The notes below the pieces were generated by a model, which was not told where the DNA came from, did no database searches, and was given only the letters and a program-made list of their open reading frames with translations. A stretch of 64,000 bases of DNA from Psococerastis gibbosa. Its lineage: Eukaryota > Arthropoda > Insecta > Psocodea > Psocidae. The stretch spans positions 42,257,039-42,321,038 of the forward strand of contig OZ020487.1 of NCBI GenBank assembly GCA_963971405.1, given 5' to 3'. A program made the translations under genes and the position numbers. Shown here piece by piece: positions 52-36,195 of this stretch (positions are counted from its first letter, which is position 1; each line of letters starts with the position of its first letter).

Positions 52-3000
52 GACCTAGCTACTCACTAGAAAGTGGCTGGAATGGTGGGCTGCAAGGAGT
101 TGAGGACGCAGTTCAATCGCTAAAGACCGGTCTTGCAGATGCTGTGATCCTGGGGTCAGGAAATTCCATATTTAATTACCATCCATCCTACCAATACAAC
201 AAACTTAATCTACTAAGTGCTGATGGAGTGACTAGGTCTTTTGATATTGAAGGTATGTATGGAATATCTACTGTAGAACTGTACTCGGCACTGTGTTCGA
301 AGTATGCATGTAAACTGACTCGTAACTGTACTTGATCTTAACATGCTTTCACCTGTTCCATTGCGTCAATGGTAAACTTGTCTCAGCTTGTCCATTATCT
401 ACTGTAGAACTGTACACGGCAATGTGTTCGAAGTATGTATGTATACTGACTTGTAACTGTACTTGATCTTAACATGCTTTCACCTGTTCCATTCCGTCAA
501 TCGTAAGCTTGTCTCAGCTTGTCCATTATCTACTGTAGAACTGTACACGGCAATGTGTTCGAAGTATGTATGTATACTGACTTGTAACTGTACTTGATCT
601 TAACATGCTTTCACCTGTTCCATTCCGTCAATCGTAAGCTTGTCTCAGCTTGTCCATTATCTACTGTAGAACTGTACACGGCAATGTCTTCAAAGTATGT
701 ATGTAAACTGACTCGTAACTGTACATGGTCTTAACATGCTTTCACCTCTTCCATTGCGTCAATGGTAAACTTGTCTCAGCTTGTCCATTTATTATTTATT
801 ATTATTTTCCAATATTGAAATATCCGTGGAAAACTGTCATACACTTTTTTATTATTTTTATAAAAGGTTAATACAAACAATTTAATGAATTTATCCGATT
901 GACCTCTTCAGTCGCCTCTGTAGGTTAGTACCCGTGATGAGTTACGACACGTCTTAGATTGCATGGCGTGTAGAGACTAGCACATGTACAAGCATGCTAC
1001 CACCTTGCCATCGAAGTTCACCATCGCCACTGCCATTACAGTTACTGATGTACTCAGGGATCTTAAAAGGTACTTGTATAAGTGTAACACTGAGTAATAA
1101 CTTTCAGGTTCCGGTTATGGTCGAGCAGAAGCAGTAGATGTAATAGTTTTGCAGAGATCAAGCGACGCCAGGCGAAGTTATGGCTCGATAGTTCATGTCA
1201 AAAATGCAACAATGGGTGACCAGAACGATCTGATTTACAAACCAATCCAGAATAATTGGTTATCCATGCTCGAGGAGTTTTATACGGAATGCAAAGTCAA
1301 CCCTAGCGATGTCTCTTATTTGGAAGCTTATGGGTCTGCAGACATTGTAAGTGCTTGGAAGTTATGTAAAATTAGATGAGAATGGGGTTAGGGGTGCACA
1401 CGCAGGGGCGGATTAAAGGGGGCGGGGGGGGGGGCGGTCGTAAAATTAATAAAGTATAATTATATTATATTACATTATGGTGTTTTTGATTCTTTAGTAG
1501 TATTTAGCCAAAGAACCTAAAAATATGAGAAAAAAAGCGTTTTCTATCACATAGAGTAATTGCGTGAGTGAATGAGTAGAAATGGATGTGAGAATGAGAA
1601 GATTAATTACTGTTTATTACCTAATTATTTTTAAGCAGTTAATTGTAAGAGAGAGCCTTTGGCGCTAATATTCGATGCAAAAATTTTAAGCGTTAAAATA
1701 AGCTTTACTTTGTAAGATATATACTTTACTGCACTGCTGTTGAAATGCGTAAAACCCCACTATTTTGCACTTACATTTCCAAATTTTCCCCTCGGTGAAA
1801 CCCCAAGCCCCCCCCCCCCCCCCCTCTTTGTGTTGAATGCAATATTATTTCTATACAAACTAAATCGTCATGATGGCAGTGGTGGGTCCAGAGGGGCCCC
1901 GAGAAAAATTAGCACACACTATATAAAATAGGACATTCTAAACAATAACATTAGTATGGTAACATGAATATGTCTTCCAAATTTTTATAATAAAATTTTA
2001 AATTTTGCTGTTGGAAACATCGTAAAACCCCACTATTTTGAACTTATATTTTCAAATTTTTCCCCCGGGGGAAAACCACGCCCCCCCCCCAGTTTCCAGC
2101 AATATGATTGAAAGCATTTAATTTGTAAGCTTTAAAAATCTACACTTTACTGTTGTCAAAATGCGTAAACCCCACTATTTTGCACTTATATTTTCACATT
2201 TTCCCCCGGGGAGACCCCTGGACCCCCCAATTGGTGCCTATCTGCATCAGGCGCATTGGCTTTTCAACCAACGTTAGTGACAACGCCACCGTCGGAAAGG
2301 GGGCACTTGCTTTTCAAATAAGATCCGCCCCTCCCAAAACTTATTGTTTAATCCGCCCCTGTGCACGCGGGGGACGAAAGACCCGTTTTATTCTACGGGA
2401 CGACACACAGAACGAACGACACAGTCGTTTTCGATAGCGCGATGGAAACCGGGACGAGGGGTGGGACGGGTCTTGACTTCATTCCCGCTCCACCAGAAAT
2501 GGGTGAAATAAAATATAGCGATTTCAGCGTCTTGTCTTGGTGGACTGAAAATTTCAAAATATTTCCTACTGTAGGCAATTTGGTCCGAAATTTTTTGCTA
2601 GCACACAACCGGTTTCGGCTTACACCATCGTCAAGTGTAAAATAGTCAAACCATAAAAGTACGCAACGGTACCTGGGCAACTCGTTGTCCAGCGCGCTTT
2701 GTAGCAGTTTGCCGAATGACAATAGTCACACCACACCAACCCCATTCAAAACCACAGTACTGCACTATACATAAATATACAACGTGTAGCGTTAACATTA
2801 CTTTAAAAAAGAAAGTATAATATAATTATAATGTCGGTAACTCCACATCTTACAGAGGATTTCTTCGTTTGGATATCTTGGTTGTCATTTTATTTAATTC
2901 ATCATTAATTGTAAATTGTATTATGGGTTAATTGTAATAGTGGACCAAAAGGCCCAAAATTCGCCCATATAGAAAACAAAGACAATTTTCTTTCTTTAAT

Positions 3001-36195: not shown

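Follow-up and report, generated by a model that had tools for sequence, protein, structure and literature searches.

A fatty acid synthase paralogue of Psococerastis gibbosa that keeps only its malonyl/acyltransferase site intact and may load an acyl carrier protein in trans

Results

The locus encodes a complete, stop-free gene related to animal fatty acid synthase

We analyzed a 64,000-nucleotide stretch of the genome of Psococerastis gibbosa (contig OZ020487.1; in our numbering C12:42257039-42321038), hereafter the window, which carries a paralogue of fatty acid synthase (FAS) on its + strand, hereafter the window gene. Judged by its sequence, the gene is a complete, selectively retained FAS paralogue that is predicted to be unable to synthesise fatty acids. 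Our leading reading, held tentatively and with less than even confidence, is that it encodes a retained protein reduced to its malonyl/acyltransferase (MAT), and that this MAT would most likely load the acyl carrier protein (ACP) of another polypeptide in trans. Within the window, the gene comprises 23 exons (52-252 to 36082-36195) that join in phase without a stop and give 5,103 nt including the TAA, or 1,700 aa. The same 23-exon frame had been proposed from the letters of the DNA alone (the sequence-only reading), and our rebuilt model reproduced it with GT-AG borders at 22/22 introns, the weak donors being GTTGGT after 16628 and GTTAGA after 34969. Position 52 is the window edge, which cuts the gene, and not the start of the gene. 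Two further exons lie in the 10 kb preceding the window (L021:8135-8279, which begins with ATG, and L021:9031-9354), and both join in phase; the full gene has 25 exons from ATG to TAA and encodes 1,857 aa, with the sole stop at its end. The exon model was hand-built from splice signals and homology, and exons 13, 19 and 23, which fall outside the tool alignments, were assigned by eye. A chance or mistaken joining of exons was ruled out by the alignment scores of the remaining exons together with the phases. The exons in the window are as follows, with the domains ketosynthase (KS), MAT, dehydratase (DH), enoyl reductase (ER), ketoreductase (KR) and thioesterase (TE).

52..252, + strand: E1, coding exon 3 of the complete gene; carries the KS active site, GPSYSLESGWNGGL versus GPSxxxDTACSSSL in FAS, nucleophile Cys replaced by Trp
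1108..1346, + strand: E2, KS; EAHGTG changed to EAYGSA, catalytic His replaced by Tyr
3006..3242, + strand: E3, KS; KSNMGH retained
5941..6270, + strand: E4, end of KS and linker (Pfam PF16197)
7824..8054, + strand: E5, start of MAT (PF00698, 9.7e-65)
8542..8731, + strand: E6, MAT; GHSVGE (Ser581 retained) and YHRGK (Arg606 retained)
9581..9810, + strand: E7, MAT; IPYHS (His683 retained)
10829..11130, + strand: E8, MAT; HANNLMSP (Asn738 retained)
11682..11865, + strand: E9, end of MAT and start of DH
13467..13577, + strand: E10, DH; LITYKLDG versus LVDHTLDG, catalytic His changed to Tyr
16268..16628, + strand: E11, DH; weak donor GTTGGT
17998..18162, + strand: E12, DH; NWTLHLMAFLQ versus NWVSFMDTMLQ, catalytic Asp changed to Met
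18863-18901: 39-bp copy of the start of E13
19014..19207, + strand: E13, in the unaligned DH-ER gap; by eye the end of DH and start of ER, lacking the psi-ME/psi-KR region of about 460 aa
19809..19985, + strand: E14, ER
22284..22463, + strand: E15, ER; cofactor loop GSGGVG changed to SLNNLG
27111..27318, + strand: E16, ER
27971..28124, + strand: E17, ER
28916..29300, + strand: E18, KR remnant; GGLGGFG changed to GGDPSSW
29316..29510, + strand: partial duplicate of E18, decayed; DNA identity 73%, with gaps
29513..29704, + strand: second partial duplicate of E18; DNA identity 88%, open frame, then GTAAGG
29781..29982, + strand: E19, end of the KR remnant (by-eye assignment); the ACP expected to follow was not found
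30302..30585, + strand: E20, start of TE with no preceding ACP (PF00975 from residue 1488 of 1700)
31482..31700, + strand: E21, TE; elbow GxSxG reads GEGWG, Ser changed to Gly (by-eye alignment to genes L and J, introduced below)
34763..34969, + strand: E22, TE, where the Pfam match ends; weak donor GTTAGA
36082..36195, + strand: E23, last exon, TAA at 36193-36195; by eye the C-terminus of TE, catalytic His changed to Lys

The gene contains small tandem partial duplications at 18863-18901 (exon 13) and 29316-29704 (exon 18), the latter made up of the two partial copies in the intron that follows exon 18. Between exon 18 and its second copy we counted 10 synonymous and 13 non-synonymous changes, a dN/dS of 0.32 (Fisher p 0.012). 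This second copy was considered as a genuine exon, its frame being open and its phase 0, but was rejected as it shows no sign of use. Long GTT and AAT microsatellites lie in introns of the gene at about 9254-9390 and 34993-35112.

MAT is the sole complete active site of the window protein

The KS-MAT half of the window protein aligned with mammalian FAS over 695-697 aa (best E 5.1e-160; 1.9e-160 with the final exon borders), and the third PDB match of this half was EcPKS1 (9cq1), one of the animal FAS-like polyketide synthases (AFPKs). Homology to canonical animal FAS (PDB 8vf7, 2vz8 and 6fn6) is clear from KS through ER, and the PDB entry nearest to the ER part is 6fn6, 'Fatty acid synthase 1, isoform A', which we take to be the Drosophila FAS. 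The window protein shares the order KS-MAT-DH-ER-KR-TE with these enzymes and differs from them in having no detectable ACP and no psi-ME/psi-KR region: the alignment gap between DH and ER spans 101 residues versus 562 in human FAS, so that a central block of ~460 aa is absent. The statement of the sequence-only reading that the synthase architecture is kept therefore stands for the domain order and fails for the ACP and this central region.

Searching the 1,700 aa against Pfam gave matches to MAT (9.7e-65), the C-terminal part of KS (1.5e-21), the N-terminal part of KS (3.5e-10) and TE (1.5e-6). Three KS models were above their cut-offs, TE was just above and DH and ER were below theirs; no KR and no PP-binding match appeared up to E=1. 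When the TE part alone was searched against the PDB, no FAS thioesterase was recovered, the best match (E 0.084) being 6vap, named Thioesterase. Neither Pfam nor a search of the genome with an ACP query placed an ACP between the KR remnant and TE.

At the level of residues, aligned to PDB FAS chains, KS carries C161W and H293Y and retains Lys326 and H331; with the KS nucleophile lost, the window protein is predicted to be unable to condense. His and Asp are the catalytic residues of DH, and both are lost (His to Tyr, Asp to Met). The nucleotide-binding loops have likewise gone, GSGGVG reading SLNNLG in ER and GGLGGFG reading GGDPSSW in KR. The TE elbow is GEGWG versus GYSFG in gene L and GYSTG in gene J, and by eye the TE Asp and His are also lost. 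A replacement of the TE nucleophile by Trp was considered and dismissed: in the alignment with genes L, J and I, Gly stands in place of Ser and is followed by the Trp, which gene I has as well. In MAT, where Ser581 is the nucleophile, His683 the base and Arg606 the residue that binds the malonyl carboxylate, Ser581, Arg606, His683 and Asn738 (numbering from chain 2vz8) are all retained, making this the sole complete active site. The residue alignments thus agree with the sequence-only reading, in which the KS, DH, ER, KR and TE sites were altered and MAT alone was intact.

Ten ACP-less genes share an intact MAT, and in eight of eight read the KS nucleophile is lost

A MAT search of the 409 Mb genome returned 52 matches (53/53 candidates scored), which we grouped by position and order into at least 14 FAS-type loci. 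A single-exon MAT match at C13:13.2M is presumably a mitochondrial enzyme. The FAS-type genes are listed below.

C12:39.55M: gene L
C20:11.93M: gene J
C2:45.97M: gene K
C20:16.28-16.33 Mb (MAT locus 16.32M), - strand: gene M
C12: gene N, the window gene
C1:24.83M: gene I
C1:5.58-6.62 Mb, all on the - strand: genes A-H, an eight-gene array of about 1 Mb

Whether the genome also holds a canonical FAS had been raised by the sequence-only reading, and FASs with canonical residues indeed lie at other loci. Genes L, J, K and M have the KS Cys (4/4), an ACP (4/4) and KR (4/4); for J, K and L, only part of some MAT exons is in the alignment. With the ACP of gene J as query, matches at E<=10 were confined to J, M, L and K (4/4 candidates scored). 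A genome search with the Pfam PP-binding model hit five places, namely J, M, L and two (on C19 and C3) outside the 14 loci, and neither this model nor the gene J query found an ACP at the window locus. Pfam KR matched at L, J, K and M and at 0/10 of the others, with further dehydrogenase-like matches elsewhere (37/47 candidates scored), and the genome-wide Pfam DH search gave a single sub-threshold match, at gene L.

The ten ACP-less genes (N, I and A-H) have lost the KS Cys in 8/8 cases read (all but D and G); for the KS His, the exon was read in N and H. The Cys is replaced by Trp in two genes (N, I), by Asn in four (A, B, C, H), by Tyr in one (E) and by Asp in one (F). By contrast, Ser581, Arg606, His683 and Asn738 of MAT are all kept in 10/10. 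For the central and C-terminal domains of genes A-I, the sources are family searches and short reads of exons. All nine relatives still have the Ser of the TE elbow (seven with GLSSG, E with GLSAG and I with GISWG), and the window gene alone has lost it. For the C1 array taken by itself, the KS Cys is absent in 6/6 genes read, the MAT residues are intact in 8/8 and the TE Ser is present in 8/8.

In a tree of KS and MAT exons, the ten ACP-less genes form a clade against L, J, K and M (approximate likelihood-ratio test, aLRT, 98.6; ultrafast bootstrap, UFBoot, 99), and the eight with KS data do so in a KS-only tree (98.8/99). The position of the window gene inside the clade is unsupported (16.7/58 on KS and MAT).

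Gene M is the mirror image of this group

Gene M keeps the KS Cys, His, Lys and His, the DH His and Asp, the GGIG loop of ER, the GGLGGFG loop, FSSVS and GQTNYG of KR, GMDSM of the ACP, and AHSGG and DGSP of TE. Its MAT keeps Ser581 in GYSIGE and carries R606I, N738A and H683N; exon 7 of gene M is not represented in the MAT alignment, and the last change was judged by eye. Gene M thus appears to be an otherwise complete-looking FAS with a dead-looking MAT, whose activity is probably lost. By sequence, the genome would therefore hold both halves of a would-be split system, an ACP-less protein with an intact acyltransferase (AT) and a synthase with an ACP and KS and seemingly no working AT.

MAT of the window gene remains under constraint

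In the window gene, MAT is the domain whose conservation comes nearest to that seen in the other FASs. Its identity to gene L is 46%, compared with 48% for J, 48% for K and 37% for M, and that of KS is 41%, compared with 59% for J, 53% for M and 47% for K. In ER, the window gene has 26-29% identity versus 47-54% among L, J and M.

Selection was assessed with purpose-written two-ratio codon branch models under two branch-length caps, using multiple starts for the ω = 1 fit in the window-gene MAT and KS tests. The MAT tests covered 8/14 genes for the window gene, 7/14 for gene M and 6/14 for the ACP-less group; the KS tests covered 9/12 genes with data for the window gene and 7/12 for gene M and for the ACP-less group; the ER tests covered 4/14. 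On the window-gene branch, the shorter cap gave a MAT ω of 0.256 versus 0.180 in the rest (twice the log-likelihood difference, 2ΔlnL, 8.2) and the longer cap gave 0.094 versus 0.087 (0.4), and ω = 1 was rejected at both (57.9 at the shorter, 48.4 at the longer). For KS, the values were 0.318 versus 0.200 (8.4) and 0.111 versus 0.104 (0.1), with ω = 1 again rejected (18.6 and 10.5). ER evolved at about three times the background ω (74.4, 72.8), and ω = 1 was still rejected (11.8, 7.9). The view of the sequence-only reading that this is a retained, non-synthesising paralogue and not a neutral pseudogene was thereby strengthened: the open reading frame is complete, there are no stops, frameshifts or broken splice sites, neutrality is rejected on the window-gene branch for MAT, KS and ER, and the losses are common to relatives in the same genome.

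In the C1 array, ω of MAT was 0.135 over eight genes (2ΔlnL 469 versus ω = 1; fitted branches 0.02-0.92), and the Cys-less KS exon, over six genes, had an ω of 0.21 (65 versus ω = 1). When N, H, I and their stem were taken as the ACP-less group, ω of KS was above that of the rest with 2ΔlnL of 16.6 at the shorter cap and 1.7 at the longer (significant at the shorter only), and ω of MAT was not above the rest. For gene M the MAT ω was 2.4-2.7 times the background (70.7 and 51.3) and ω = 1 was rejected at the shorter cap (31.2); KS and ER of gene M were not relaxed.

Discussion

A MAT that may act in trans

A best-kept MAT, a missing ACP and a reciprocal gene M together favor a MAT-based activity of the window protein, perhaps exerted in trans. 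The normal acceptor of MAT is the ACP, and since a MAT-deficient FAS is also present, trans loading of a FAS ACP appears to be the most economical form of such an activity. In this scheme, MAT would accept malonyl-, methylmalonyl- or other acyl-CoA and form an acyl-enzyme, the acyl group would pass to the ACP on a separate polypeptide, with gene M as the prime candidate acceptor, and the dead KS and remaining modules would act as a scaffold or dimer interface. MAT activity, transfer in trans and the partnership with gene M are all three steps that we infer from sequence. A narrower version, which we consider doubtful, is that animal FAS has been split again, with the window gene and/or its relatives charging the ACP of gene M in trans; the MAT donors would then set which (methyl)malonyl or acyl unit enters gene M. 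The principle has a counterpart in bacterial trans-AT polyketide synthases, where the acyltransferase is on one protein, often described as stand-alone, and an AT-deficient synthase with its ACP is on another. The likeness is to the proposed principle; the putative donor MAT of P. gibbosa differs in sitting within a degenerate megasynthase, and its transfer is a proposal. Our literature search found no paper proposing trans loading in insects, which is not proof of its absence from print.

Several observations weigh against trans loading or soften the contrasts on which it draws. It leaves unexplained why the nine relatives retain the GxSxG Ser in TE (9/9), and genes L, J and K, with intact MAT residues, could themselves serve gene M, so that ten dedicated donors are not required. 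The tree of MAT alone breaks up the ten ACP-less genes, joining N to M (79/72) and I to J and K (80.9/69); the ten-gene group may be lacking there because the MAT branch of gene M is very long. The contrast in KS is modest when gene K is the yardstick (41% versus 47%). Because dS on long branches reaches the cap, the ω values depend on the cap: the window-gene MAT is itself slightly relaxed at the shorter one (2ΔlnL 8.2), and the rejection of ω = 1 for the MAT of gene M is weak at the longer one (2ΔlnL 5.2).

Alternative explanations

The window protein could instead be a non-catalytic regulator, the role suggested in the sequence-only reading. Its MAT pocket would then hold malonyl- or acyl-CoA and/or the protein would dimerize with an active FAS, so as to regulate that FAS or to report lipid state. 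A dimer interface would fit the constraint that persists on the dead KS, both in the window gene (2ΔlnL 18.6 and 10.5) and in the Cys-less exon of the array (ω 0.21), and DH, ER and TE can still be recognised in degenerate form. Mere ligand binding, however, needs neither the nucleophile Ser581 nor the base His683, yet both are kept in 10/10 genes, and we regard this explanation as rather unlikely.

A second alternative, to which we give slightly less weight and which we also hold to be unlikely, is a MAT-based enzyme whose acceptor is water or something other than an ACP, such as an acyl-CoA hydrolase or an acyltransferase acting on a small molecule or protein. The four retained MAT residues and the failure to find an ACP in cis suit it, and the TE-type Ser in 9/9 relatives would suit acyl hydrolysis in those genes. 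The window gene itself, however, has lost the Ser of TE and, as judged by eye, its Asp and His too; animal MAT is known as a transacylase and not as a hydrolase; and a partner with a dead-looking MAT, gene M, is present.

That the gene is a decaying pseudogene, stop-free by luck so far, is very improbable: although the partial duplicates of exon 18, one of them decayed, the relaxed ER and the possibility of a death too recent to have left stops would accommodate it, neutral divergence of 0.05 over 1,857 codons would bring about 11 stop gains (P of none 2e-5) and 0.1 about 22 (4e-10), ω = 1 is rejected on the window-gene branch, the four MAT residues are kept, and exon 18 and its second duplicate differ with a dN/dS of 0.32 (p 0.012). 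Least probable by far is an assembly or gene-model artefact concealing a normal FAS, for which one might cite the hand-built model, its two weak donors, the three exons placed by eye (13, 19 and 23) and the psi-ME and ACP exons that were not found, and against which stand the KS loss in 8/8 group genes read, seven of them elsewhere in the genome, the FASs with canonical residues at separate loci and the lack of any ACP match at the window locus.

Relation to known FAS-like proteins

Aberrant FASs are known from insects: the cluster III enzymes lack a PP domain, have modified DH, ER, KR and TE, keep detectable KS and MAT, and occur beside regular FASs (Finck et al. 2016, PMC5039406; here and below, as given in part of that paper). 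The window gene resembles them in that it too lacks the PP domain (ACP) and has modified DH, ER, KR and TE. Cluster III is described as having KS and MAT unmodified; KS and MAT of the window protein pass the Pfam cut-offs, but KS residues are lost. It further differs in that the KS Cys is gone in 8/8 genes read, that the genome carries a ten-gene expansion and that the window gene also lacks the TE Ser; the published scoring is by domain, and the part of the paper used here discusses no loss of KS residues. ACP loss is thus known from cluster III, and what our sequences would add are the losses of the KS nucleophile and TE Ser and the ten-gene expansion.

MAT-less FASs, which are members of cluster II, and PP-less FASs coexist in Chorthippus, and dN/dS over FAS and elongase pairs of two grasshopper species was 0-0.129 (PMC5039406). 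RNA interference against Tribolium TC000238, whose domain structure is described as very similar to cluster III, is reported to have caused 100% mortality on larval injection, and against TC15337, which lacks MAT, 60% mortality on larval and 40% on pupal injection (PMC5039406). Gene M is like the MAT-less cluster II enzymes such as TC15337 in keeping the other domains and losing MAT; it differs in still having a MAT-like stretch, minus Arg606, Asn738 and by eye His683, whereas the published cases lack the domain. For the MAT-less transcripts, the authors called functional protein coding unclear, and in the part of the paper used here they proposed no complementation (PMC5039406).

AFPKs are FAS-derived paralogues that are abundant in arthropods and have a FAS-like architecture, and some locust members affect hydrocarbons, as described in part of a further paper (Lin et al. 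2024, PMC10764717). The window protein differs from them in lacking the KS nucleophile, without which it would be unable to condense.

Reading residues across one genome turns what was an oddity among aberrant FASs into a pattern, that of a MAT-keeping group devoid of the KS nucleophile and of any detectable ACP or KR alongside a synthase with a dead-looking MAT, and makes testable the idea that the loading domain of an animal FAS can lie on a separate protein. If trans loading holds, the pairing of MAT-less and ACP-less FASs in grasshoppers and beetles, as far as the part of that literature used here describes it, could be the same arrangement, repeated in insects. Split loading could also bear on the branching of methyl-branched cuticular hydrocarbons and pheromones.

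Other features of the window

Scans of the window for tRNAs and Rfam families gave no matches. The remaining features detected are listed below; the open frame at 24920-25912 lies in intron 15 of the window gene (22464-27110), and the exon at 39670-40029 lies downstream of that gene.

24920-25912, - strand: 330-aa open frame with a Pfam 7tm_7 chemosensory receptor match (1.2e-7)
37103-37393, + strand: fragment of a hAT transposase (Dimer_Tnp_hAT, 8e-8)
39670-40029, + strand: exon of fructose-1,6-bisphosphatase (Pfam 4.3e-37)
50589-50879, - strand: coding exon of ribosomal protein L36e (Pfam 1.2e-31)
53364-54629, - strand: 422-aa Arg/Ser-rich open frame with no Pfam match up to E=0.01, by eye of splicing-factor type

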